Made by a program: the position numbers and the translations under genes. The notes beneath the pieces are model-generated. The model made no database searches and was not told the origin of the DNA. It saw only the letters and a program-made list of their open reading frames with translations. Of a stretch of DNA of 10,257 nt, positions 1-10,257 are shown piece after piece (within the stretch, counting starts at the first letter, position 1; every line of letters starts with the position of its first letter). The stretch is from NCBI GenBank assembly GCA_947462945.1, contig CANHTE010000014.1, forward strand, positions 1-10,257, given 5' to 3'. The stretch is from Acetobacteraceae bacterium. Its GTDB lineage: Bacteria; Pseudomonadota; Alphaproteobacteria; Acetobacterales; Acetobacteraceae.

Positions 1-201
1 CTGCCGGATCATCCTGCGGTGCTGCAAAGCTTCATCTGGCAAAAGCATGATTTGGCACCGGCCTTCCCCGAACTGGCCCGTTTTCTCGATTTCTGGAGGC
101 GGGAGATTGAGGGCGCCCTGCATTCGGTCCGGGTGGCCAGCGCATCCCTGATCAAGCCGGCCGAATGGCGGTTCAGCAACGGGGTGTTCCGGCTGCATTG
201 A
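1..201 (+). CDS. C-terminal fragment of an unidentified protein, possibly a LysR-type regulator
   Basis: An open frame runs in from the left edge and ends at a TGA at 199-201, so only the last 66 residues are visible. Coding is supported by GC-rich third positions throughout and by the tight convergent spacing to the next gene (8 bases between stops). The peptide contains IWQKHDLAPAFPELARF, then FWRREIEGALHSVRVA, and ends WRFSNGVFRLH. A W-x-K-x-D-x-x-P-A pattern followed by a helix is reminiscent of the last part of LysR substrate-binding domains, but no domain boundary or HTH is available. The LysR idea is therefore a guess by resemblance. The existence of the coding sequence is fairly secure. 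A methionine at 19-21 is internal rather than a credible start, since the frame is open upstream of it. Confidence 0.5.
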   Translation: MPDHPAVLQSFIWQKHDLAPAFPELARFLDFWRREIEGALHSVRVASASLIKPAEWRFSNGVFRLH

Positions 202-212
202 GGCGCCGCTCA
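199..212. repeat. Short inverted repeat spanning two convergent stop codons
   Basis: The 14 bases TGAGGCGCCGCTCA have TGAG/CTCA arms around a GC core. The left arm contains the TGA stop of the plus-strand fragment (199-201). The right arm contains the stop of the minus-strand kinase-like gene (TCA at 210-212, read as TGA). It may act as a weak bidirectional terminator, but there is no T-tract on either side, so this is only suggestive. Confidence 0.3.
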
Positions 213-1004
213 GGCGACGTGCGCGGCCATCCGCTCGGGCGGCAAGGAGAGAAAGGCGCGGGCGCCGATGCCGGGCGCCGCCTCGATCACCAATTCCCCG
301 CCATGCGCCCGCAGCAGGGCGCGCGCCAAGGAGAGCCCGAAGCCCAGCCCGCGTGAACGATCCGGCGCCCCGTCATGGGAGGCGGGGGCCAAATCCTCGA
401 TGGCCAGCCCCATCCCCTCATCCTCGATGACGATCGAGGCGGCATGGGGGCGCAAATCCGCGCGGATATCAATCATATCCGCCTCATCCGTGGCGCGGGC
501 GGCGCGGCCCAGCACCTGGACCAAGGCGCCCCGCAGGGCGCGCCGATCCGCCGTGACGGCCAAGTTCTCGATCGCCGGGGCGATGCGCCAATGGCGCTTG
601 CCCGGGCCAAGCTGAGCGCCGGCAATGGCCACCGCCTCCCGCAGGATGGGGGCCAAGGGAAAGCGTTCCTCATTCAGGCCACGGGCAGGGACGACGCCCG
701 TCGCTTCCTCGGCCGCGGCATCGGCCAGGGCCAGAAGGTGGCGTGCCTCCCCTTCGAAGGCCCGGCCGGCTTCCCCGCCCGGCGATTGCCCGGCCAAAAC
801 CTGGGCGCGGCCCAGCAGGGCCAGGCCCATGCTGTTCAGGTCCCGCGAGAGGAGCCCGAAACTGCGCGCCCGTGCCTCCGCCAGCGCGCGTTGCGCGGCG
901 GCTTCCGCGGCGCAGCGGGAGGCGCGGACCATCGCCGCGGCAGCCGCGAGGCCAGCCATGGCGGCGAAGAGGGCGAGGACGGTATGGAGGACATCTGTCG
1001 TCAT
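210..1004 (-). CDS. Membrane-anchored histidine-kinase-like protein with degenerate H and N boxes
   Basis: This 264-residue protein has one N-terminal membrane helix (about residues 5-26), an Ala/Arg-rich helical linker (27-48), a DHp-like helix (about 48-72) and a HATPase_c domain (about 115-257). The G1 box is clear (DEGMGL, 195-200), and so is the glycine-rich ATP lid (RGLGFGLSLARALLRAHGG, 218-236). In the helix where SHELRTPL would stand, the sequence is SRDLNSMG, so the phospho-acceptor His is Arg54. In the N box (VLGRAARAT, about 164-172) the Mg-binding Asn is replaced by Arg/Ala. There is no sensor domain, and the protein is short for a kinase. It therefore looks like a pseudokinase or an ATP-binding regulator rather than an autokinase, and no response regulator is adjacent. 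The start at 1004 gives a full TM segment but has only a weak ribosome site. A CtrA-like box lies 25 bp upstream. HATPase-fold membership is secure and the function is not. Confidence 0.8.
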   Translation of the reverse strand: MTTDVLHTVLALFAAMAGLAAAAAMVRASRCAAEAAAQRALAEARARSFGLLSRDLNSMGLALLGRAQVLAGQSPGGEAGRAFEGEARHLLALADAAAEEATGVVPARGLNEERFPLAPILREAVAIAGAQLGPGKRHWRIAPAIENLAVTADRRALRGALVQVLGRAARATDEADMIDIRADLRPHAASIVIEDEGMGLAIEDLAPASHDGAPDRSRGLGFGLSLARALLRAHGGELVIEAAPGIGARAFLSLPPERMAAHVA

Positions 1005-1028
1005 GTGTTGATTCTGGTCGGATGCTGG

Positions 1029-1043
1029 TTAACGCCCGGTTAA
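1029..1043 (-). promoter_or_regulatory. Candidate CtrA-binding box (TTAA-N7-TTAA)
   Basis: The plus strand reads TTAACGCCCGGTTAA. On the minus strand this is TTAACCGGGCGTTAACC, with both half-sites continuing as TTAACC, the half-site favoured by the alphaproteobacterial master regulator CtrA. It ends 25 bp upstream of the kinase-like gene's ATG, close enough to overlap the promoter. The spacer of exactly 7 matches the full-site consensus. TTAA is rare in DNA this GC-rich, so a full site by chance is unlikely. Binding is inferred, and the target could also be mmsB on the other side. Confidence 0.5.
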
Positions 1044-1172
1044 ATCCAATTTGGCACGAATCCCAATAAGTCGCTTCGACATCGCATCGAAATGTCAAGA
1101 CGGTTGCGAAACGACTGGAATGGCGAGAGAGTGCTCCCCTTGGGGCCTCCCTCAGGACAGGACCGAGCCGCA

Positions 1173-1187
1173 ACGGGCGGCGCCCGT
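1173..1187. repeat. Short hairpin (6-bp stem, 3-nt loop)
   Basis: ACGGGC, GGC and GCCCGT form a perfect 6-bp stem with a 3-base loop in the middle of the intergenic region. No T-tract follows on either strand, so it is not an obvious terminator. It would lie in the mmsB leader if transcription starts upstream of it. Confidence 0.3.
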
Positions 1188-1216
1188 CGCATGCCCCGGC
1201 ACATCAAATTTTCCTG

Positions 1217-1230
1217 GCGAATCGATTCGC
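1217..1230. promoter_or_regulatory. 14-bp perfect palindrome containing two abutting GANTC sites
   Basis: GCGAATCGATTCGC is fully self-complementary and contains GAATC (1219-1223) directly followed by GATTC (1224-1228). GANTC is the target of the cell-cycle methyltransferase CcrM in many alphaproteobacteria. The site lies 106 bp before the mmsB ATG. It could be an operator for a dimeric regulator, a methylation-sensitive switch, or both. No regulator can be named from the sequence. Confidence 0.4.
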
Positions 1231-1336
1231 ACCTCCGCCTTCCCATTATTTGGAAAGAGCTGGTCGCCTTCCGCCCTGGCCCAATTTGGCCTTTGCCCGG
1301 CGCCTGCTAGGCTCTCGCAAACGGGAGGAAACAGGC

Positions 1337-2221
1337 ATGGCGCGCATTGGATTCGTGGGTCTCGGCCATATGGGCTTGCCCATGGCGCGTAACCTGGCCA
1401 GGGCCGGGCACGAGGTGCGCGGCTATGATCTGAGTGCCGCCGCCATGGATGCGGCCGCCGAGGGCGGCATCCAGCGCGCCCAATCCGCCCCCGATGCAGC
1501 CCGTGGCGCGGATTTCGTCATCACCATGCTCCCGGCCGGCACCCATGTCCGGGCCGCCTGGGCCGAGATGGCCGGCGCCGTCGAGCCCCATGCCGTGCTG
1601 GTGGATTGCTCCACCATTGATGTGGAGACCGCGCGTGAGGTTGCGGCCGGCCTCCCCATGCTCGATGCCCCGGTCTCCGGCGGTACCATGGGCGCCGAGG
1701 CCGGGACGCTGACCTTCATGGTCGGGGGCGAGGCCGCAGATTTCGCCACCGCGAAGCCCATCCTGGAACATATGGGCCGCAGCATCGTGCATTGCGGCGC
1801 GGCCGGTGCGGGCCAGGCGGCCAAGCTTTGCAACAACATGCTGCTGGCCATTTCCATGATCGGGACGAGTGAAGCCTTCGTCCTGGCTGAAAAGCTGGGC
1901 CTCAGCCACGCGGCCCTGTTCGAGGTGGCGAGCAAATCCTCCGGCCAGTGCTGGTCACTCACCACTTATTGCCCGGTGCCGGGGCCGGTGCCGGGCAGCC
2001 CGGCCAACCGGGACTACAAGCCCGGCTTTGCCACCGCACTCATGCTGAAGGATCTGGGACTGTCGCAGCAGGCCGCCCAGGCGGCGGGGGCCGCCACGCC
2101 CCTCGGTGCAGCCGCCCTGGATCTATATGACCGCTTTGCGGCGGAAGGCGGTGCAAGTTTGGATTTCTCAGGAATCATTCAGATGCTGCGTAGGGGCCAA
2201 GTAAAAGGGTCCGGGGCCTAG
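1337..2221 (+). CDS. mmsB: 3-hydroxyisobutyrate dehydrogenase
   Basis: This 294-residue protein, a normal length for the family, oxidises 3-hydroxyisobutyrate to methylmalonate semialdehyde with NAD+ in valine degradation. The N-terminal Rossmann domain begins at once with GFVGLGHMG (residues 5-13). DAPVSGGTMGAEAGTLTFMVGG (about 110-131) carries the substrate-binding SGG. The catalytic Lys163 and Asn167 lie in AAKLCNN. The C-terminal helical domain has the diagnostic SSGQCWS, YCPVPGPVPGSPAN, Y-x-P-GF and LMLKDLGLS (K238-D239) motifs that separate this enzyme from tartronate semialdehyde or glyoxylate reductases. The start at 1337 is chosen because GGGAGGA (1323-1329) sits 7 bases before it and the Rossmann motif follows directly. 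In-frame codons further upstream add 29 unrelated residues. The gene stands alone, with no other valine-pathway genes in view. Its stop lies inside a terminator-like hairpin shared with dabA. Confidence 0.93.
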   Translation: MARIGFVGLGHMGLPMARNLARAGHEVRGYDLSAAAMDAAAEGGIQRAQSAPDAARGADFVITMLPAGTHVRAAWAEMAGAVEPHAVLVDCSTIDVETAREVAAGLPMLDAPVSGGTMGAEAGTLTFMVGGEAADFATAKPILEHMGRSIVHCGAAGAGQAAKLCNNMLLAISMIGTSEAFVLAEKLGLSHAALFEVASKSSGQCWSLTTYCPVPGPVPGSPANRDYKPGFATALMLKDLGLSQQAAQAAGAATPLGAAALDLYDRFAAEGGASLDFSGIIQMLRRGQVKGSGA

Positions 2222-2243
2222 GCCCCAGCCGCCGGAGGCCCTT
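2203..2243 (-). terminator. Rho-independent-type terminator of the dab operon, overlapping the end of mmsB
   Basis: Read on the minus strand, 7 bases after the dabA stop, an arm AAGGG-CC-TCCGG pairs with CCGGA-CCCTT (2-base bulge) and is followed by TTTT. The loop holds a perfect 14-bp palindrome, GGGGCCTAGGCCCC (2213-2226), which can form a competing inner stem. The mmsB stop TAG (2219-2221) lies at the centre of that palindrome. On the plus strand the same hairpin lacks a T-run, so termination of mmsB there is less certain. Confidence 0.6.
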
Positions 2244-2250
2244 CAACCCC

Positions 2251-4623
2251 TTATTTCGCCCATTGCCCCGGCCCCACATAGCGCCGCAATCCCCCCGCCT
2301 CCGCCGCGCCCAGCGAGAAAAGGTGCAGCCAGCCATTCTCGACCAATTGCCGCACCCCCTCATGCTTGGCGAGAATGGCTTCCATCGCCTCCTCCGGCGC
2401 CTCGATCACGACATGCAGGCGCATCGGCTCGTGCCGCCAATCCGAGCCGTCATGCAGGGATTGCATCGGCAGTCCGGTGCGGAGATCGCCGCCCTGGCCT
2501 TCCAGCACGCCCAGCCGGCCGGTGATGTTGTGCAGCAGCTTGTTGCCGCTGCCCATCGCCGCATTGTCCACCGTCGAGCCATAATATTGCAGGTTGATCC
2601 AGTTCGCGACGACCATGGGCGCCGTCATGATCAGCTCCAGCACGGCGAAGCCCTGATCCTCCTGCCAGACATAGGAGTGGAGGAAGGCGCGGCCTTCGAG
2701 GTCCAGCCCCTGCGTGCGGTTGCGCGGTGCCACAATCAGCGCGGCATTGTTCACCAACCCCCATTCCGGCCGCACCTCGGACCAATCCTTGCTGCGCCGA
2801 AGGATCGCCGCATCAGGATCGCCTGCGATGCCGAGCGCGTCGGCGCGCAAGCCCCGCGCGCGGCGGGAGGCCTCGTCCAGCCAGCCGCGCAGCTGCGCGA
2901 TGGCCGGGTCAGCCGGGTCGACGTCATAAAGGGTGACTTCGTCGGTGGTGGTGTCATGCAGGCCGGCGAGGAAACGCGTGCCGGGCGGGATGATGATGCC
3001 GCGCGCCACCAGGCCTTCCCGCACCATGGCGTCATTCAGCACGGCGGCGGCGACGCGGGCATTGCTCTCCCCGGTGTGGCCGCCACAGGCGCCGCAATCC
3101 AGCCCGGCCGCGTGGGGATTGTTCACCGTGCTGCTGCCATGGCCGGCCAAGAGCACAAGCGGCGCGAAATCATGGGTGAGGGACAGCGCCCGCAACACGC
3201 CCTCGGCCGCATCCAGCCGCTTTGTGCTGGCGAAGCCATGTGCGCGCGCCTGCCAGGGACGCGCCTCCAGGCTGGGTGCAAGGCGCGCCAGCAAGGCCGG
3301 GTCCAGCCCATCGGCCGGCTTGGCCGTGTGGCCCAGGCTGCCCCGGATCAGATCAGGCGCGGCGAGGAAGCCCGCTGTCTCCACATAGGCAAAGGAAGAG
3401 ACGGCCGAGTTGCGGAAGCTGTTCCATAAATCGGCGGTGCGGCGGCGCAGGCTGCGCTCTTCTGCCAGCTTTGATTCCTCCTCCGCCGTGGCGCCCTGCA
3501 CCGCCTCGCAGATCACCAGGCCAGGCTTCAGCAGAACCGGGCATTGCTCGGCGCCCCGTTCATTGCCCAGACGCACATACTCCAGCGCGAAGCCGAAGAA
3601 GCCGGCAAAACCGATGGTATGCGTCTGCGGCGTCACGCTCTCCAGCGCGCGGCGATAGACTTCGGAACGTACGTCGATGCAAAAGGCTGCCTGCACCATT
3701 GGCGCTGCGGTGGGGCGCGTCTTCTGCCCGGCCAGCTTGGCGGCCAATTCGCGCTGATAGCCGCGCTCATAGGCATCCAGCAGCAGCAGATCGGCCTCCA
3801 GCGCCGGCGCTTCGCCCGGTGTGGTGAGGCGTGTCTGCCAGGCTGTGCGAAACGCCGGCGATGTGTGATGCGCGTGCAGCGCGGCCTCCCAGGCCAGGCG
3901 AATGGCCAGGAGTTCGATGACGCCATCATTTGGCGTGCCATCCAGCTCCTGCAGCCAGCCGCGTTGCCTCAGCAGGGCGGCCCAGCCGGCCAGGCCCTGC
4001 AGCGCGCGATGCAGATAGGCCTCGGGCTGAGTGACGCCGAGGGCTGCCAGGCAGGCGGCAACACTTTCTGCCGGGTCGGCCGGCAGGGACGCGACCAGGG
4101 CGCGAAAACCGGGCAGGCCGGCAATATCCGGCGAGCGGTCATGCCGGGCGGCGGCACGCCAGGCGGCGTAGAGGGCTTCACCCCGCCATGGCATGGCCCA
4201 GCTGGCCTGGCCGTCATCGCACCAGGCGGCGAGCCATTTGGCGATTTCCTCGTTGGTGATGCGCGTCCATTCCGTGCCCAGCCTTGCATCCAGCACATCG
4301 CTCACCGTGATGCAGGCCTGGCTGATGGGGCGGGGCTCAGATGCGGCTTGGCGCAGCGCCTGGGGCGTCGTCTCGGTCCCGGCAGCGGCGATGGCGACGC
4401 TGAGGTCCGCCTCGTTGATCCGTCCGCTGGCCAGGGCCTGGGCGAACATCGCGCGCTCCGGCAGCGCGGGCCTGCCGCTGACCTGACCGAGCCAGGCCTG
4501 GGCCTCGCCGAAGCCCATCCCGGAGAGCCCGAGGAAGGGGTTTACCGCCACGAAATCGGCCAGGGGCCAGACAGGCGCGATGCGGTTGGCGGCCGCCCGT
4601 AACTGCGAGATCATCTTGGTCAT
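2251..4623 (-). CDS. dabA: DabA, DUF2309-family subunit of an inorganic-carbon transporter (carbonic-anhydrase-like)
   Basis: This 790-residue protein is the cytoplasmic, beta-carbonic-anhydrase-like subunit of the DAB (also called MpsB/YbcC) system. It is thought to hydrate CO2 vectorially in a complex with the membrane subunit DabB, giving net bicarbonate accumulation. The expected zinc ligands are visible: Cys315 and Asp317 in AFCIDVRSE, His495 in LAGHGSSTVNNP, and Cys510 in GLDCGACGGHTGE. The C-x-D pair and the 15-residue His-to-Cys spacing agree with the published Halothiobacillus DabA2 site (C351, D353, H524, C539) as I remember it. Other conserved stretches are VAVNPFLGL near the N-terminus and GFAGFFGFALEYV (about 338-350). 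The ATG at 4623 overlaps the dabB stop by one base (TGATG) and has an AAGGGGGG ribosome site. In-frame starts further upstream lie inside dabB and are rejected. Co-translation with dabB is expected. The reading frame is intact. Confidence 0.93.
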   Translation of the reverse strand: MTKMISQLRAAANRIAPVWPLADFVAVNPFLGLSGMGFGEAQAWLGQVSGRPALPERAMFAQALASGRINEADLSVAIAAAGTETTPQALRQAASEPRPISQACITVSDVLDARLGTEWTRITNEEIAKWLAAWCDDGQASWAMPWRGEALYAAWRAAARHDRSPDIAGLPGFRALVASLPADPAESVAACLAALGVTQPEAYLHRALQGLAGWAALLRQRGWLQELDGTPNDGVIELLAIRLAWEAALHAHHTSPAFRTAWQTRLTTPGEAPALEADLLLLDAYERGYQRELAAKLAGQKTRPTAAPMVQAAFCIDVRSEVYRRALESVTPQTHTIGFAGFFGFALEYVRLGNERGAEQCPVLLKPGLVICEAVQGATAEEESKLAEERSLRRRTADLWNSFRNSAVSSFAYVETAGFLAAPDLIRGSLGHTAKPADGLDPALLARLAPSLEARPWQARAHGFASTKRLDAAEGVLRALSLTHDFAPLVLLAGHGSSTVNNPHAAGLDCGACGGHTGESNARVAAAVLNDAMVREGLVARGIIIPPGTRFLAGLHDTTTDEVTLYDVDPADPAIAQLRGWLDEASRRARGLRADALGIAGDPDAAILRRSKDWSEVRPEWGLVNNAALIVAPRNRTQGLDLEGRAFLHSYVWQEDQGFAVLELIMTAPMVVANWINLQYYGSTVDNAAMGSGNKLLHNITGRLGVLEGQGGDLRTGLPMQSLHDGSDWRHEPMRLHVVIEAPEEAMEAILAKHEGVRQLVENGWLHLFSLGAAEAGGLRRYVGPGQWAK

Positions 4624-6158
4624 CACACGCCCCCCTTGAGCGGCCAATGCCGGGCCACCAGCCGGTTGCACCAGGCATTCACGTAGAACCCGTTGAACAG
4701 ATGGACGTAGAAGGCCTGGAGCCCTGGCCCCGGCTGCCCCGAGCGGCGCAGCACGTTCAGCACCAGCAGAGTGCCGAAGGCCAAGACCGTAAGTGCGGCC
4801 CAGACCAGGGCAAAGGGACCACGTGGTGAGGTCTCGGTGGGCAGTGCCGAGGCCAGCAGCCACTCAGCACCCCATTGCAGCGCGAAATAGGCCACGCAAA
4901 CGCCGAGCGCGAAGCCACCGACGCGCAGCGCCACGAAGCGCGCCTCTTCCCGCGCCATTAAAGCCGCGGCGAGCATGGGTGTCAGGCCCATCATCAGCGT
5001 GGCGCCCAGCACGGCCACGCCCGGCTTTTCGAAGAAGGGCATGCCGAAGATGGCACCCACCACCAGCACCAGCGCGACCGAGGCGCCGAGCGCCGGGATC
5101 AGCATGGCCACCGGCAAGGGCCGCTCCTGCCCTGGCCTGCGCTGCGTGATGATGCCGCCAGCGGAGAGAAAGGCATGCGCCTTGTAGATGGAATGCGCCA
5201 CGATATGCAGCATGGCGGCGGCGAAGGCGCCCAGCCCGCATTGCAGGATCATGAAACCCATCTGCGCCACGGTGGACCAAGCGAGCGCCACCTTCACGCT
5301 GGTCTGCGTCAGCATCACCGCCGCCCCAAAGACAGCCGTCACCGCGCCGATGATGAGCAGCAGATCCAGCGCCTGCGCCGAGAGCGCCACCAGATCCGCC
5401 ATGCGGACCACGAGAAAGCCGCCCGCATTGATGATGCCCGCATGCAGCAGGGCGGAAACGGGCGTGGGCGTCTCCATCACCTCCGGCAGCCAGCCATGCA
5501 TGGGGAATTGCGCGGATTTCAGCACGGCGGCGAGGGCGATGAAGACCGCCGCCAGATGGATGGCGATGCCTGGCTCCCCCGTGCCGCGGAGCGCATCGGT
5601 CGCGGCAAAGATCGCGCCGAATTCCAGCGTGCCGAAGCGGCCCAGGATCAGCAGCAATGCGGCGAGCAGCGCCGCATCGCCCAGGCGGCTGGTCACGAAT
5701 TTCTTCCGCGCCGCCAATTGTGCCCCATGCCGCTCAGGGTAGAAGACCAGCAGCCGATGCAGGCCCATGCTGGTCCCGATCCAGGCCAGGGCGAAGAACA
5801 GCAGATTGCCGGAGATGGTCAGCGCCAGCACGGCGGCCAGCGTCAGGCAAAGCCAGCGGGTGAAGCGCGCCTGGCCCGGATCGCCAGCCAGATAGCGCCG
5901 GCCATAGGCGGTCACGATCAGGCCGATGAAGGCGACCAGCAGGAACATCACGCCCGAGACGGCGTCGAGATGCACGAAGAAGCTGCTCTGCCGCCCATGG
6001 ATGACAAGCCCGGTTGCCACCAGCGCGGTCAGCACGAAACCGCCGATGCTGGCCCCAATGGCGACCCGGCGCAGCGCAACGGCGCCTGCGCGAAGCGGGA
6101 TGAGGCCAGCGCCGAGCAAGAGCGCGGGGGCCAGGGCGGCAAGCCAGGAGAGGAGCAT
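4623..6158 (-). CDS. dabB: DabB, NuoL/Mrp-like proton- or cation-conducting membrane subunit of the DAB transporter
   Basis: This 511-residue, very hydrophobic protein has about 13-14 predicted membrane helices and belongs to the proton-conducting transporter family of complex I NuoL/M/N and Mrp antiporters. It couples H+ or Na+ flow to DabA-catalysed bicarbonate formation. The family core is clear: LKSAQFPMHGWLPEVMETPTPVSALLHAG (starting near residue 213) with its conserved Lys and the PTPVSALLHAG signature, then KVALAWSTVAQMGFM and HIVAHSIYKAHAFLSAGG with its Lys/His residues. The helix-5 region reads WIGTSMGLHRLL, without the Glu that NuoL carries there; this may be normal for DabB. Length fits DabB rather than NuoL (about 610). 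It is the first gene of the operon, and its stop overlaps the dabA start. The start at 6158 gives a complete first helix but has only a weak ribosome site. No other complex I genes are nearby, which excludes a nuo operon. Confidence 0.92.
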   Translation of the reverse strand: MLLSWLAALAPALLLGAGLIPLRAGAVALRRVAIGASIGGFVLTALVATGLVIHGRQSSFFVHLDAVSGVMFLLVAFIGLIVTAYGRRYLAGDPGQARFTRWLCLTLAAVLALTISGNLLFFALAWIGTSMGLHRLLVFYPERHGAQLAARKKFVTSRLGDAALLAALLLILGRFGTLEFGAIFAATDALRGTGEPGIAIHLAAVFIALAAVLKSAQFPMHGWLPEVMETPTPVSALLHAGIINAGGFLVVRMADLVALSAQALDLLLIIGAVTAVFGAAVMLTQTSVKVALAWSTVAQMGFMILQCGLGAFAAAMLHIVAHSIYKAHAFLSAGGIITQRRPGQERPLPVAMLIPALGASVALVLVVGAIFGMPFFEKPGVAVLGATLMMGLTPMLAAALMAREEARFVALRVGGFALGVCVAYFALQWGAEWLLASALPTETSPRGPFALVWAALTVLAFGTLLVLNVLRRSGQPGPGLQAFYVHLFNGFYVNAWCNRLVARHWPLKGGV

Positions 6159-6200
6159 GGGCCAGGATTCCAGTTGCGAGTCCGGCCGGCTTACGAGAAC

Positions 6201-6229
6201 GCAATCCTTCTGGAAATTTCAAAGATTGC
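6201..6229. promoter_or_regulatory. Interrupted palindrome with a LysR-type T-N11-A core (candidate dab operator)
   Basis: The arms GCAATCCTT (6201-6209) and AAAGATTGC (6221-6229) are inverted repeats with 8 of 9 positions paired, separated by 11 bases. T6209 and A6221 therefore form the T-N11-A core typical of LysR regulators. An 8-bp perfect palindrome, GAAATTTC, lies inside the spacer (6213-6220). The element sits 31 bp before the regulator's ATG and 42 bp before dabB, where it could serve both autoregulation and activation of dabBA. A TTGCGAG direct repeat (6174-6180 and 6245-6251) flanks it. Binding is inferred from position and symmetry. Confidence 0.6.
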
Positions 6230-6260
6230 AAGAAAATGTTCTGTTTGCGAGAAGCATGGC

Positions 6261-7130
6261 ATGGCACATCTCAACTACCACCATCTTCGGCATTTCTGGG
6301 CCGTGGCCCGTGAGGGCGGGCTGACCCGCGCCGCCCAGCGGCTGAACATCGCCCCCTCGGCCCTTTCCACCCAGCTGCGCTTGCTGGAGGAAGCCCTCGG
6401 TCAGGCCTTGTTCGAGCGCCGCAACAAGCGCCTGGAGCTCACCGAAGCTGGGCGCATCGCGCTCGACCACGCCGAAACCATTTTCCGCACCGGGGATGAA
6501 TTGCTGGATACGCTGAAGGGCCGCGGACCTTCAGCGCGGCGCGTGCTGCGCATCGGCGCCATCACCACCCTCTCGCGCAATTTCCAGCTTGAACTTCTGC
6601 GCCCGCTGATCGGCCGGGGCGATGTGGAATTGGTGGTGCATTCCGGCCATTTGCGGGATTTGCTGGCGCAACTGGATGCCCTCACGCTGGATGCCGTGCT
6701 GTCCAACGCGCCTGTGGCACGCGATGCGGAAAAGGATTGGACCAGCCGCCTGCTGGATGAGCAGCCGGTCAGCCTGGTCGGCCGTAAACCCAGAGGGGGA
6801 CGAGAGTTCCGCTTCCCGGATGATCTGCGCGGAACACCGATCCTGCTGCCGGCCTTGGGCAGCTCCATCCGCGCCGGCTTTGATCTCATCATGGATCAGG
6901 CGGGCATCAGGCCCATCATCCTGGCCGAAGTGGATGACATGGCCATGCTGCGCCTGCTGGCGCGCGAAAGCCCGGGCGTGACCTTGGTGCCGCCCATCGT
7001 GGTGCGGGATGAGCTGCGTTCGGGCCTGCTCGTCGAACGCTGCCGGGTGCCGGGGTTGGTGGAGGGGTTTTACGCGATCACGCGCAGCCGGCGGTTTCCC
7101 AACCCACTGCTGGCGGAGTTGTTGAAGTGA
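6261..7130 (+). CDS. LysR-type regulator, NhaR-like, divergent from dabBA
   Basis: This 289-residue protein opens with MAHLNYHHLRHFWAVAREGG, the N-terminus typical of the NhaR branch of LysR regulators. The winged HTH spans about residues 5-64 (TRAAQRLNIAPSALSTQLRLLEEALGQALFERR). The linker helix (LELTEAGRIALDHAETIFRTGDELLDTL) and an effector domain from about residue 90 to the end follow. Position and orientation make it the probable regulator of dabBA, acting through the palindrome in the shared 102-bp gap. NhaR itself responds to Na+ and pH, while dab operons elsewhere often carry CbbR-like LysR neighbours. Whether this one senses cations, CO2 or metabolites is unknown. The start at 6261 is chosen because the HTH follows immediately and GAGAAG lies a few bases upstream. 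The frame stays open for about 1 kb further upstream, but that stretch is antisense to dabB. Confidence 0.88.
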   Translation: MAHLNYHHLRHFWAVAREGGLTRAAQRLNIAPSALSTQLRLLEEALGQALFERRNKRLELTEAGRIALDHAETIFRTGDELLDTLKGRGPSARRVLRIGAITTLSRNFQLELLRPLIGRGDVELVVHSGHLRDLLAQLDALTLDAVLSNAPVARDAEKDWTSRLLDEQPVSLVGRKPRGGREFRFPDDLRGTPILLPALGSSIRAGFDLIMDQAGIRPIILAEVDDMAMLRLLARESPGVTLVPPIVVRDELRSGLLVERCRVPGLVEGFYAITRSRRFPNPLLAELLK

Positions 7131-7147
7131 GGGGCGCTGCCCCTCAC
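7127..7147 (+). terminator. Strong hairpin at the end of the LysR gene
   Basis: A perfect 9-bp stem (GTGAGGGGC pairing with GCCCCTCAC) closes a 3-base loop. The regulator's TGA stop (7128-7130) lies in the left arm. No T-run follows, so intrinsic termination is uncertain although the stem is very stable. Confidence 0.45.
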
Positions 7148-7154
7148 ACTCCCC

Positions 7155-7172
7155 GGCAAGGAACTTGTTGCC
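7155..7172 (-). terminator. Small hairpin between convergent gene ends
   Basis: GGCAA and TTGCC form a 5-bp stem around GGAACTTG; a competing stem CAAG/CTTG lies within it. It sits 10 bases beyond the aminotransferase stop on the minus strand and may help end that operon's transcript. There is no clear T-tract, so it is weak evidence. Confidence 0.25.
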
Positions 7173-7182
7173 TGCACCCTGG

Positions 7183-8493
7183 CTATCGGGCGCGTATTGC
7201 GCCGGCGAAGGCTTCCAGGGTGAGGGTTACGTCTTCCGGCGTGTGCGCCAGGGAGATGTAGTATTTGCTGTCACCCTTCAGGATGCCGGCCTGCCGCAGA
7301 TGGCGGTTGAAATGGCCGGCCAGCTTCGCATCGGCGCGCTGCATGTCGCGGTAGTTGCGGATGTCGCCCTCGGCAAAGACCACGTCAAACAGCACGGGTT
7401 CCCCCACCACCTGGCCGGGCAGGCCCGCATCATGCAGCAACCGTGTCAGCCCCTCCATAAGCGCATGGCCGGTCGCGAAGGCGCCTTCATAAGCGCCGGG
7501 GCGCGCGAGGATATCGAGCGTCGCCAACCCCGCCACCGAGGCCACCGGATTGCCCGAGAGCGTGCCCACCTGCATCAGGAAGCCGTCATCACCCACCAAG
7601 GCACGGTCGAAATGCGCCATGATGTCAGCGCGCCCCGCGATGGCCGCCAGCGGAAAGCCCCCGCCGATGATCTTGCCCAGCGTGCAGAGATCGGGCGTCA
7701 CGCCGTAATATTGCTGCGCGCCGCCATAGGCGAAGCGGAAACCGGTGACGACCTCATCGAAAATCAGCGGAATGCCGAAGCGCGCGGTCACCTCGCGCAG
7801 GGCCTCCAGGAAGCCGGGGGCGGGCGGCAGCAGGCGCTGGAAGGGCTCGACGATGACGCCGCCCAATTCATCGTGATGCGCTTCGATCAGCGCAATGGCG
7901 TGGGCCGCATCATTATAGGGCGCCACCAGGACCTCATCGCGCACCCGGGAGGGAATGCCGGCGCTGTCCGGGATGGCCTGAGGGAAATTGGCGGGCCGCT
8001 TGGGCGAGAGGCTCATCAGCCCGTGGTCGCTCATGCCGTGATAGCCGCCCTCGAACTTCAGGATTTTCTCCCGTCCGCGAAAGGCGCGCGCCACGCGCAT
8101 CGCATACATATCGGCCTCGGAGCCGGAACTGACGAAGCGGATTTGATCGGCGCAGGCCATGGCATCCACGACGCGCGCGGCCAGGTGGATGCCAGCCGGA
8201 TTGTTGGCGAAGAAGGTGGTGCCCAACGGAACCTGTGCCAGCACAGCGGCCGTTACCTCCGGGTGGGCATGCCCCACAAACATGGGGCCGGAGCCCAGCA
8301 GGTAATCCACATATTCGCGGCCCTCGCTGTCCCAGACATGGGCGCCCGCGCCGCGCACCATCGCGAGGTCACTCGCCAGATTGCCGAAATGCCCCGCCGG
8401 CAGGACGCGATGGGCAAGCTGCGTCAGCGTGCTATCGCCTGGGCGCTCTTCCGCTCGGGCGTGAATCGCCCGCTCGGCCAAGGTCTCATTCAT
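7183..8493 (-). CDS. Class III PLP aminotransferase resembling glutamate-1-semialdehyde aminomutase
   Basis: This 436-residue fold-type I PLP enzyme has the GSA-aminomutase/class III layout. Cofactor residues are visible: SSGSEAD (about 122-128) for the phosphate, Tyr151-His152 in GGYHG stacking on PLP, Glu216 in VEPF, Asp246 in IFDEVVTGFRF, the Schiff-base Lys274 in TLGKIIGGGFP, and GTLSGNPVAS (about 310-319). Alphaproteobacteria make 5-aminolevulinate from glycine and succinyl-CoA, so a haem role (HemL) is unlikely. GSA-like paralogues more often act as transaminases or aminomutases in accessory catabolic pathways. The gene is last in a minus-strand operon. Its ATG overlaps the stop of the AhpD-like gene by four bases (ATGA), so the product probably works with the upstream oxidative enzymes. 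The substrate is unknown. Confidence 0.85.
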   Translation of the reverse strand: MNETLAERAIHARAEERPGDSTLTQLAHRVLPAGHFGNLASDLAMVRGAGAHVWDSEGREYVDYLLGSGPMFVGHAHPEVTAAVLAQVPLGTTFFANNPAGIHLAARVVDAMACADQIRFVSSGSEADMYAMRVARAFRGREKILKFEGGYHGMSDHGLMSLSPKRPANFPQAIPDSAGIPSRVRDEVLVAPYNDAAHAIALIEAHHDELGGVIVEPFQRLLPPAPGFLEALREVTARFGIPLIFDEVVTGFRFAYGGAQQYYGVTPDLCTLGKIIGGGFPLAAIAGRADIMAHFDRALVGDDGFLMQVGTLSGNPVASVAGLATLDILARPGAYEGAFATGHALMEGLTRLLHDAGLPGQVVGEPVLFDVVFAEGDIRNYRDMQRADAKLAGHFNRHLRQAGILKGDSKYYISLAHTPEDVTLTLEAFAGAIRAR

Positions 8494-9065
8494 GGCCGCA
8501 CGGCCTCCCCAAGTGTCTGCATCAGGCGGTTGGCGTTCGCGAACATCGCGACGGAGAGGATGATGTCGAGGATTTCCGCATCCTCCATCCCCTGGTCGCG
8601 CAGAAGCTGCACATCGGCCGCTGTGGCGGCCGAGGGCGTGGCTGCCAGCTTCACGGAGAAATCCACGATGGCGCGCGGGCGGGTGGCCATGGGCACCTCC
8701 ACGCCATCGGCCATCATGCGCTGCATGAGGTCAGGATCGCCCTTCATCTGCACATAGCGCAGCGCATGCACGCTGGCGCAGTAGGGGCAGCCGTTCAGCC
8801 GGGATTCCGCCGTCGCCGCCAATTCGCGCTCAGCGCGCGAGGCGCCGCGCGGGCCGTACATGATGGTGTTGAAGAGCTTGGAGCGCTGGCGCAGCACCTC
8901 CGCCTCCTGCACCAGCAGCAGGTAGTAGGGGTTTTCCTTGGCCTTGGCGTGGCTTTCCTCCAGGACCTTGATCTCGTCCGGCGTCGCCTTCGCGATGTCG
9001 AGAACCGGCGCCCAGGCCTTCCAGTTCAGGCTTTCCATGGGGAAGCCGAAATCATGGGTGCTCAT
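8490..9065 (-). CDS. AhpD-like carboxymuconolactone-decarboxylase-domain peroxidase (Avi_7169-type), complete active site
   Basis: This 191-residue protein has the CMD/AhpD fold. It carries the full redox set of mycobacterial AhpD with the same spacing: Glu81, 12 residues to Cys93, Cys96 (C-P-Y-C) and His100, in ERELAATAESRLNGCPYCAS and the following VH. It therefore probably reduces peroxides, or acts as a thiol-disulfide partner. The N-terminus (LNWKAWAPVLDIAKATPDE) and LRQRSKLFNTIMYG match my memory of the family named after Agrobacterium Avi_7169, which is normally paired with an Avi_7170-type protein, as here. The start at 9065 has GGAGG (9071-9075) seven bases upstream and overlaps the stop of the repeat ORF (ATGA). 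In-frame ATGs at 9128 and 9185 would add one or two repeat-encoded 19-residue extensions, but their GGAGG lies only one base before the ATG. Its own stop overlaps the aminotransferase start (ATGA). Confidence 0.85.
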   Translation of the reverse strand: MSTHDFGFPMESLNWKAWAPVLDIAKATPDEIKVLEESHAKAKENPYYLLLVQEAEVLRQRSKLFNTIMYGPRGASRAERELAATAESRLNGCPYCASVHALRYVQMKGDPDLMQRMMADGVEVPMATRPRAIVDFSVKLAATPSAATAADVQLLRDQGMEDAEILDIILSVAMFANANRLMQTLGEAVRP

Positions 9066-9244
9066 GCCGCGGCCTCCGATGACTGAAGCGCGCTTGTCGC
9101 GCGGAAGTCTGAATCGGTGGCGCAGCATACCTCCGATGACTGAAGCGCGCTTGTCGCGCGGAAGTCTGAGTCGGTGGCGCAGCATACCTCCGATGATTGA
9201 AGTGCGCTTGTCGCGCGGAAATCTGAATCGGTGGCATTCATCAT
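9062..9244 (-). CDS. 60-residue tandem-repeat microprotein between the paired CMD genes
   Basis: This is an unrecognised peptide: MMN, then ATDSDFRATSALQSSEVCC twice, then a third copy ending SSEAAA. Each unit is 19 residues (57 bp). Vicinal cysteines fall at the two junctions, and there is no membrane segment or signal peptide. Three lines of evidence support translation. GGAGG lies six bases before the ATG. The ATG overlaps the upstream gene's TGA, and its TGA overlaps the downstream ATG (both ATGA), matching the coupling style of this operon. The four base differences among repeat units (GAT/GAC twice, GCG/GCA, CAG/CAA) are all silent in this frame and change residues in the other two frames checked. 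Codons such as TCA, ACA and GTA are less GC-rich than in the neighbours. Function is unknown: it could be a small regulatory or redox-partner peptide, or mainly a translational-coupling device. An alternative is a non-coding repeat that happens to be open. Confidence 0.6.
   Translation of the reverse strand: MMNATDSDFRATSALQSSEVCCATDSDFRATSALQSSEVCCATDSDFRATSALQSSEAAA
9073..9235. repeat. Three tandem 57-bp repeat units, the third incomplete at the DNA level
   Basis: Units lie at 9073-9129, 9130-9186 and 9187-9235 (49 bp conserved before divergence). Units 1 and 2 differ at one position. Unit 3 differs from unit 1 at three positions. All changes are transitions. Each unit contains a hairpin (GCGCG/CGCGC around CTTGT, for example 9088-9102), a GANTC site that survives the base changes (GAATC, GAGTC, GAATC), and, on the minus strand, a GGAGG copied from the ribosome site of the downstream gene. 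A unit of 19 codons leaves every frame unchanged when copies are gained or lost, so copy number could vary between strains. Confidence 0.9.
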
Positions 9245-9666
9245 GTTGCCTCCAGGAGGCGGAGGCCAGCCAGCAGCCGCGCCTGCATGTTCAGATGTGC
9301 GATCAGCTGCCCCAGCATGACCACATCGCGTGGCGCGAGGCCTGCCGCCATGAGAGTCTGGATCGCTGCCGGATTGGCCTGATCGGGCGTTTGCGTGATC
9401 AGCGTGGCGTAGTCGCGCAGCACGGCCAGGCGCGGCGAATCCCCGGCGCGGGCCTGGTGATGCGCGGCCAGCGCGGCTTCCGCGTTCAGCTCGGCCACGT
9501 GCTGTGCCACGAGGTGGCGCTCGGCCGGCGTCAGGCCGCTCTCGCCCTCGAAGATCGCGGCCTCGTAGCCGATCAGGCTGCTGCGCACATCCGGGCGCAG
9601 CGCGCGCAGCCCATCCAGCCTGCTGCCGGGCGCGATGCCCGCCAACTCGTCAACCAGGTCACGCAT
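9241..9666 (-). CDS. Cysteine-less CMD-fold protein (Avi_7170-type)
   Basis: This 141-residue, mostly helical protein has an N-terminus, DELAGIAPGSRLDGLRALRP, that matches my memory of the CMD-domain family named after Agrobacterium Avi_7170. The segment from residue 48 (AERHLVAQHVAELNAEAALAAHH) aligns without gaps to the active-site stretch of the neighbouring AhpD-like protein, but the key positions differ. Glu81 corresponds to His51, Cys93 to Glu63 and Cys96 to Leu66; only His100 is kept, as His70. It therefore cannot do AhpD-style thiol chemistry and may instead be a structural partner of the active paralogue, or bind a ligand. The start at 9666 has AGAGGAA about seven bases upstream, within the 14-base gap after the flavoprotein gene. 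Its stop overlaps the start of the repeat ORF. Confidence 0.75.
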   Translation of the reverse strand: MRDLVDELAGIAPGSRLDGLRALRPDVRSSLIGYEAAIFEGESGLTPAERHLVAQHVAELNAEAALAAHHQARAGDSPRLAVLRDYATLITQTPDQANPAAIQTLMAAGLAPRDVVMLGQLIAHLNMQARLLAGLRLLEAT

Positions 9667-9680
9667 GGGCCATTCCTCTT

Positions 9681-10257
9681 CTACCGCGGCACGAAGAAGG
9701 GTGTGCCCTCCAGCTCCGGTTCGTCAAACGCGTGCAGTTCACGGCGCAGCGCGCCGATCTCCGCCTGGAACAAATGGCGCAGGATGGCGCTGGAAACCTT
9801 CTCGCCCGCCACCGCCACGCCCGGGATGTCGCTGGCGATGCCGCCATGGGTGGCGTGCGCGCCATAATTCATCAGATGGATCAGGCCCAGTTCGGCGGGT
9901 GCCGACGCATCGCGCGGCTGCAATTCGAAGCCGGGGCCGAGGAAGGGGAAGGCCGCCATCTCGGGCCGTTCCTTGCCCGGGGGCGGCGTATAGGCATCCT
10001 CCCAACGGGCGATATGCGGGGCAAAATCGGCCAGCGCCGGCACGCGGTCCATATCCACCACGAAGCCCGTGCCGATGATGAGGAAGTCATGGCTCACCTC
10101 GCGCCCACCCAGATCCAGCACCACGCCGGAGGCGGAGCGCCGCGCGGCCTGGACAGGGGTTGCGAGATGGATGTGGAAACCCGGCAGGCGCAGCGCGCGC
10201 TTCACCGTCTCATGCGGGGGCGGCGCCTGGGCGTCATGCATATAGACCACCAGGTCC
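9681..10257 (-). CDS. FMO-like FAD/NAD(P)-dependent oxidoreductase, C-terminal part
   Basis: The frame is open to the right edge, so only about the last 192 residues are seen and the true start lies outside the window. HDFLIIGTGFVVDM carries the ATG-like motif (GTGF) of flavin monooxygenase-type enzymes. It is followed by the usual C-terminal pattern of such proteins: ALADFAPHIARWEDAYTPP, FPFLGPGFELQPRD, LIHLMNYGAHATHGGIASDIPG and a closing helix. The FAD- and NAD(P)-binding GxGxxG motifs would be upstream and are not visible. It precedes the CMD pair by 14 bases and is probably cotranscribed. Its likely role is oxygenation or oxidation of a small substrate in the same pathway. Monooxygenase versus simple oxidase cannot be settled from this part. 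An internal Met at 10250 is not the start. Confidence 0.75.
   Translation of the reverse strand, partial: DLVVYMHDAQAPPPHETVKRALRLPGFHIHLATPVQAARRSASGVVLDLGGREVSHDFLIIGTGFVVDMDRVPALADFAPHIARWEDAYTPPPGKERPEMAAFPFLGPGFELQPRDASAPAELGLIHLMNYGAHATHGGIASDIPGVAVAGEKVSSAILRHLFQAEIGALRRELHAFDEPELEGTPFFVPR

Follow-up and report, generated by a model that had tools for sequence, protein, structure and literature searches.

REP and REPIN repeats, which are accompanied by a RAYT transposase, are high-copy palindromes located at gene ends. The CGTC REPs of the Alphaproteobacteria are dispersed palindromes described from convergent and unidirectional gene gaps, near stop codons, and have no known dedicated transposase; members of the CGTC superfamily carry an unpaired CGTC (or TGTC/CCTC) tag at one end, and the Acetobacteraceae were among the families missing these repeats in the 2013 survey (Di Nocera et al. 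2013, PMC3733652). The structural RepRanger census of 2025 counts REPs in Lichenicola cladoniae, a member of the Acetobacteraceae, so palindromic repeats as such have precedent in this family; in E. coli, REPs lying no more than 15 nt from a stop codon are reported to stall ribosomes and lower translation (PMC12306157). In studies of termination-reinitiation, gaps of about 20 nt all but eliminated re-initiation in the six gene pairs tested, in E. coli and Haloferax (PMC10666635). A synthetic upstream open reading frame (ORF) encoding a nonsense peptide, with a strong ribosome-binding site by its stop codon, raised translation of the next gene (PMC13255528). Among the papers listed in literature searches, mostly outside subscription journals, we recognized no description of the element reported here or of REP repeats as coupling relays.

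The window analyzed here is a stretch of 10,257 nucleotides from an Acetobacteraceae bacterium (assembly GCA_947462945.1, contig CANHTE010000014.1, positions 1 to 10,257). It contains a REP-like repeat, triplicated in the stop/start overlap of two co-directional genes, and we estimate a probability of roughly 0.77 that the repeat persists there as an in-phase ribosome relay. The relevant features, in gene direction, are the following.

9241..9666, minus strand: upstream gene, 141 aa, a conserved neighbor with no Pfam match
9249..9253, minus strand: GGAGG ahead of the relay ORF (direct reading)
9062..9244, minus strand: relay mini-ORF of 60 codons, spanning the array (open reading frame listing, direct reading)
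9184..9237, minus strand: palindromic unit 1, 5'-most in gene direction (covariance model, 54.2 bits; also a row of the model)
9187..9191, minus strand: GGAGG at the 3' edge of unit 1 (direct reading)
9127..9180, minus strand: palindromic unit 2 (covariance model, 55.5 bits; also a row of the model)
9130..9134, minus strand: GGAGG at the 3' edge of unit 2 (direct reading)
9070..9123, minus strand: palindromic unit 3, adjoining the CMD gene (covariance model, 64.8 bits; also a row of the model)
9073..9077, minus strand: GGAGG at the 3' edge of unit 3, 7 nt ahead of the CMD-gene ATG (direct reading)
8490..9065, minus strand: downstream gene of the carboxymuconolactone decarboxylase (CMD) family (Pfam PF02627, E 1e-9)

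The 60-residue ORF, its three 57-bp units, the overlaps at both ends and the preceding GGAGG (CCTCC on the plus strand at 9249-9253) had been noticed in a preliminary description of this DNA, and all are present where it placed them. On the minus strand, the ATG of the mini-ORF (9244-9242) overlaps the TGA of the upstream gene (9243-9241), and its own TGA (9064-9062) overlaps the ATG of the downstream gene (9065-9063), a start that was chosen by codon score. The ORF had been said to lie between two CMD-family genes; this holds for the downstream gene, but the upstream 141-aa protein matches no Pfam family at E 1e-3. Tandem Repeats Finder (TRF) reports a repeat at 9073-9235 of 57 bp in 2.9 copies with a 95% match, and each of the three 57-bp units is closed by its own GGAGG. 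Both remaining minus-strand frames and one plus-strand frame are likewise open across the three units; with three further open frames, the openness of the 60-codon frame is not special. A search of the plasmid collection gave no match. Elsewhere in the window, at 2251-6158 on the minus strand, a DabA gene assigned by Pfam stands beside a 511-aa ORF that we take to resemble DabB, the membrane partner of DabA in a DAB-type inorganic carbon uptake pair.

Each unit is an imperfect palindrome of about 50 nt that can form a long hairpin on the minus strand, CCGAU-(UCA)-GAYU-(UCC)-GCGC-loop-GCGC-(UUC)-ARUC-AUCGG-AGG, with three stacked helices and 16 pairs. Unit 1 has the GATT/AATC variant of the middle stem, and this compensatory pair within one stem (GACT to GATT, AGTC to AATC) accounts for two of the four changes among the units. 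The 211-nt array region folds with a z-score of -3.36, 1 of 200 shuffles being equally stable. We aligned 71 units from 40 retrieved loci together with the window and the locus L002, omitting 10 of 81 candidate units (three false, seven long). The 16 proposed pairs are paired in 91.3% of cells, versus 73.5% in shuffles, and 178 cells contain double changes, versus 59; control structures with slid partners reach 29-52% paired. Two of the five covariation measures are no higher than in shuffles: how many pairs show a double change, and how many pair types occur. The stems of the repeat covary as a hairpin. In the aligned units, GATTC is near-invariant in the 5' arm and GATC is frequent in the 3' arm. 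Since GANTC is the CcrM methylation site of the Alphaproteobacteria, copies of the repeat may be methylation-marked through the GATTC of the 5' arm.

The repeat belongs to a dispersed family. The same genome contains a two-unit coupled array (minus strand, L002 1507-1616, in G000:C100) positioned exactly between genes that we take, from their proteins, to be ruvC and ruvA, with an ATGA exit. The ruvC/ruvA junction of a same-genus genome carries one unit (L053 2702-2754), and in another genus a similar ruvA-type start comes after a unit (L070). A 20-base pattern of one arm, with up to two mismatches, matched in 66 of 249 genomes of the family, several times in tandem; because the reversed control pattern matched in 16 of the 249, many of the weaker matches are probably due to chance. 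With the covariance model, 10 genomes contained from 13 to at least 150 copies each at E <= 0.1, and the source genome, which is 57% complete, contained 31. At the stricter threshold of E <= 1e-4, matches were found in 20 of 80 genomes of the order, all in the same family and spread over 9 of 28 genera, and in none of 114 other genomes of the class; in this class sample of 115, where the source genome alone matched, one other genome is listed as belonging to the same family and 94 are not listed singly.

To describe location, we used 40 evenly spaced 20-kb stretches from two complete genomes (800 kb, not selected by pattern), with genes called by a simple codon-usage gene finder. This even sample holds 26 elements in 16 arrays, 14 of them between called genes: eight arrays are convergent, six co-directional and two overlap a gene end, while none is divergent. 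Array edges are often only a few bases from a stop codon. Among the 182 elements listed, all 72 neighboring pairs up to 150 nt apart are on the same strand and none on opposite strands. A Y1 transposase (RAYT, PF01797) was found in 0 of 9 genomes, compared with 5 of 14 control genomes. Element ends had suggested a TA target duplication at stop codons; we dropped this idea, as it found no support in the flanks. Direct repeats flanking the element are clear at some sites (e.g., L058) and elsewhere reduce to ATGA or unlike overlaps, so no rule of target-duplication length is claimed. Uncoupled copies can themselves provide the stop codon (TGA or TAG) of the incoming gene (L133 7473-7523, L049 3137-3187). 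In the window, a weak model match on the minus strand (8425-8475; 19.9 bits, E 0.015) lies in the initial codons of the aminotransferase gene next after the CMD gene, and the corresponding site in two relatives scores higher (29.1 bits in L090, 28.5 bits in L094); the N-terminus of the aminotransferase may have taken up a degenerate element.

The same gene junction can be followed within the genus. The upstream protein is present in 19 of 21 genomes, and the junction was examined at the best locus of 17. In three of these (L103-L105) there is no separate downstream start and one open frame runs through the junction; these more distant same-genus loci appear to represent a natural fusion of the upstream and downstream proteins. 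The 14 separate-gene junctions comprise seven that are empty, six with one unit and one, in the source genome, with three. At the empty junctions the genes themselves share an ATGA or TGATG overlap, and in the six single-unit genomes an ORF of 20-22 codons spans from the upstream stop to the downstream start, overlapping both; all 14 junctions, empty or occupied, are linked by overlaps. One of these, L094, was read by hand: an in-frame ATG two codons ahead of the automatically chosen start overlaps the stop of the relay ORF. The covariance model recovers a unit at all seven occupied junctions, with 35-65 bits except at the weakest, L090 (20.6 bits, E 0.011), and no unit at the seven empty ones. 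Three contigs from metagenome-assembled genomes (MAGs; a Roseococcus sp. and two Acetobacteraceae) repeat three of these junction states, although their identical proteins indicate that they may be the same genomes as already counted. On the junction tree, the occupied and empty states need five changes, at least two of them forced by starred branches; the distribution is patchy and the occupied state is not clearly clustered (88 of 500 shuffles were as low).

We then consider coupling across the family, in a census of 110 arrays (94 targeted and 16 from the even sample). Half of them (55) lie between close co-directional genes, and in 43 of these 55 a start codon overlaps the upstream stop; the chain of stop/start overlaps reaches the downstream start in 37 of the 43. 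When loci with matching flanks are merged, overlapping mini-ORFs form a chain up to the downstream start at 28 of 32 distinct loci, most of which were retrieved with a pattern fitted to one arm of the window unit that favors GGRGG edges and not a phase, and among which distant orthologs may remain. Shifting the elements in silico reduces this to 7 of 32 (+1 base) and 4 of 32 (+2 bases; Fisher 2.3e-11). Loci with a single unit are coupled in 11 of 14 cases, versus 0 of 28 shifted controls. Coupling is missing at four of the 32 loci and also in a further array, L052, which is masked by counting one member per locus. The coupled loci include both orientations, with 21 of 28 in sense and 7 of 28 in antisense. 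In the even sample 2 of 16 arrays (L120, L125) are coupled, which makes relay copies a minority class of the repeat family.

The edge of the element is also distinctive. Of the 28 coupled loci, 26 have a GGRGG at the downstream edge, versus 1 of 18 uncoupled arrays (L052; the 18 are not deduplicated), a contrast that may be overstated, as the search pattern favors GGRGG copies. Coupled sense copies have AG or GG as the edge motif in all 42 legible cases (8 of 50 are not legible), and the 12 coupled antisense copies have GG in six, the other six not being legible. Among 120 copies outside coupled arrays, 33 end in AC (CGTC on the other strand), 36 in GC and 13 in AG or GG, with 38 not legible; thus 69 of the 82 legible ones have an AC or GC end. 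We read this as the end of the repeat having probably been remodeled into a ribosome-binding site at coupled sites.

Under the relay model, ribosomes ending the upstream gene would re-initiate on the mini-ORF, cross the hairpin and terminate precisely at the start codon of the downstream gene, for which the edge of the element itself would supply GGAGG or GGGGG. Given the gap limit of about 20 nt (PMC10666635), an insert of 50-170 nt should uncouple the two genes, except where it is translated and overlaps each of them; the inserts at overlaps do carry an open mini-ORF overlapping both neighbors, as coupling would need. The relay would thus preserve a translational coupling that an untranslated insert of this length should break, and the peptide would be a by-product. 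Judging from the stalling reported at E. coli REPs (PMC12306157), the hairpin could also hinder translation. The dispersed family, the covarying hairpin, the presence and absence at one junction and the phase-locked overlaps at many loci in both orientations are direct observations; relay behavior would account for the persistence of copies at overlaps, and selection for coupling could explain the pattern. A more specific version is that a mobile palindrome targets and duplicates stop/start overlaps, carrying a ribosome-binding site and an in-phase relay ORF and so entering coupled operons without breaking them, its tag end having been remodeled from a CGTC-type end to GGAGG; this we regard as tentative and somewhat doubtful.

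An unlikely alternative is that this is an ordinary REP-like repeat near gene ends, which duplicates the overlap and whose phase is incidental, with no translation involved. It would fit the many copies that lie uncoupled at gene 3' ends (8 of the 16 even-sample arrays are convergent, none divergent), as well as the direct repeats flanking the element at sites such as L058. It would also fit the sense strand of co-directional copies, in which 2.83-2.96 of the three frames are open whether the copy is coupled or not; openness by itself therefore tells little, and phase is informative. An incidental phase should match by chance in about one third of cases, against the 28 of 32 observed. In addition, the core lengths of coupled single-unit copies fall into all three classes modulo 3 (12, 1 and 6 of 19; 9, 1 and 6 of 16 without same-locus doubles) and, in the 19 copies, are offset by the flanks in five different ways; cores of all three length classes are balanced by their flanks, so the phase does not derive from one inherited cassette. 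As far as these comparisons reach, the constrained property of elements in gene overlaps is phase.

Quite unlikely is a regulatory RNA hairpin, in which the base stem hides the downstream ribosome-binding site and sets or conditions the ratio of downstream to upstream protein. The GGRGG does lie in the base of the hairpin, and its mean unpaired probability is 0.13 in 35 coupled arrays (not deduplicated), versus 0.30 at 90 ordinary sites (P = 3e-6). However, masking the 5' arm in silico, as a simple simulation of a ribosome, leaves the site closed (0.11 masked versus 0.13 free), the Rfam scan of 8400-9700 yielded no family above threshold (sub-threshold, an miRNA family only), and 7 of the 14 same-genus junctions lack the element.

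The preliminary description had instead suggested that the peptide itself is under selection, with vicinal cysteines hinting at a thiol function. As it noted, the four sites that vary between units are third-position in the ORF frame; the five differences between neighboring units are likewise all third-position and silent (0:0:5 over codon positions 1, 2 and 3, a small sample), and all seven occupied same-genus loci preserve the frame, their peptides resembling each other (e.g., DSDxRAxxAL). This resemblance, however, follows from the DNA palindrome, and elsewhere copies are coupled in different frames and in the opposite orientation, giving unrelated peptides. Over 18 coupled arrays, the differences between tandem units are even across codon positions (19:16:18, one array supplying 11 of the 53), and a search of 1195 candidates for protein homologs of the 60-codon ORF gave none at E 1e-3. 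Its codon score is -0.194 per codon, far below the genes (mean 0.379, 5th percentile 0.223; 596 called genes of at least 150 codons, scored with a table trained on two other genomes of the genus). The cysteine pairs occur only at the unit junctions of the source genome and are absent in all six single-unit relatives. Among the observations that had been named as speaking against a selected peptide, relatives without the spacer were found (7 of 14 same-genus junctions), as was the repeat elsewhere in the genome (the 31 related matches at E <= 0.1); a frameshifted or stop-broken spacer was seen in none of the occupied same-junction relatives. A functional tandem-repeat microprotein, perhaps thiol-active and selected for its sequence, is therefore very improbable. 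What survives of the earlier claim is the frame, not the peptide sequence: selection probably acts on the spacer as a frame that is translated and locked to its two neighbors, a rule that recurs at many loci.

If the relay model is correct, it shows a route by which selfish repeats enter overlapping genes, sites expected to be closed to them. It would also provide many natural experiments on translational coupling, in which one junction exists in empty, one-unit and three-unit forms and elements occur in two orientations, and would caution that a small ORF overlapping its neighbors perfectly can be a relay carried by a repeat rather than a functional microprotein.

In the broad sense, the element counts as a REP: it is a multicopy short palindrome mostly between genes and rarely between divergent ones (0 of 16 arrays), a distribution like that described for other bacteria (PMC3733652). 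It shares with the REP/REPIN-RAYT system the high-copy palindromes at gene ends and differs in having no Y1 transposase in the nine genomes searched. The REPs of Lichenicola cladoniae are palindromic repeats in the same family, and E. coli REPs near stops are linked to translation control; the RepRanger census is structural, and its accessible text gives no consensus for that genome and mentions no relay ORFs (PMC12306157). With the CGTC REPs, the element has in common the location near stops between convergent or co-directional genes, the lack of a known transposase and, perhaps in part, the tag: the complement of GCGTC forms the end of 33 of the 82 uncoupled copies that are legible. CGTC REPs have a stem of 8-9 bp and a loop of 4-5 in 20-40 bp overall, compared with about 50 nt and three helices here, and head-to-head dimers dominate among them with HT pairs negligible, whereas the neighbors here are all direct repeats; the accessible text of the survey makes no mention of ribosome-binding edges or phase-locked relay ORFs (PMC3733652). 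By these features the element is REP-like, matching the CGTC REPs in location, in transposase lack and perhaps partly in tag, and not in size or dimer orientation. Rickettsia palindromic elements (RPE) are likewise palindromes kept translatable, but sit inside proteins, while the repeat here forms a separate mini-ORF between genes with its own start and stop overlaps (PMC3733652). The synthetic upstream ORF resembles the relay ORFs in being short, with an arbitrary peptide and an internal ribosome-binding site, and is engineered where these are natural repeats (PMC13255528). Termination-reinitiation at ATGA and TGATG involves the same junction types and distance constraint; the cases tested were host gene pairs, and here a repeat is interposed between the genes as one or several relay ORFs (PMC10666635).
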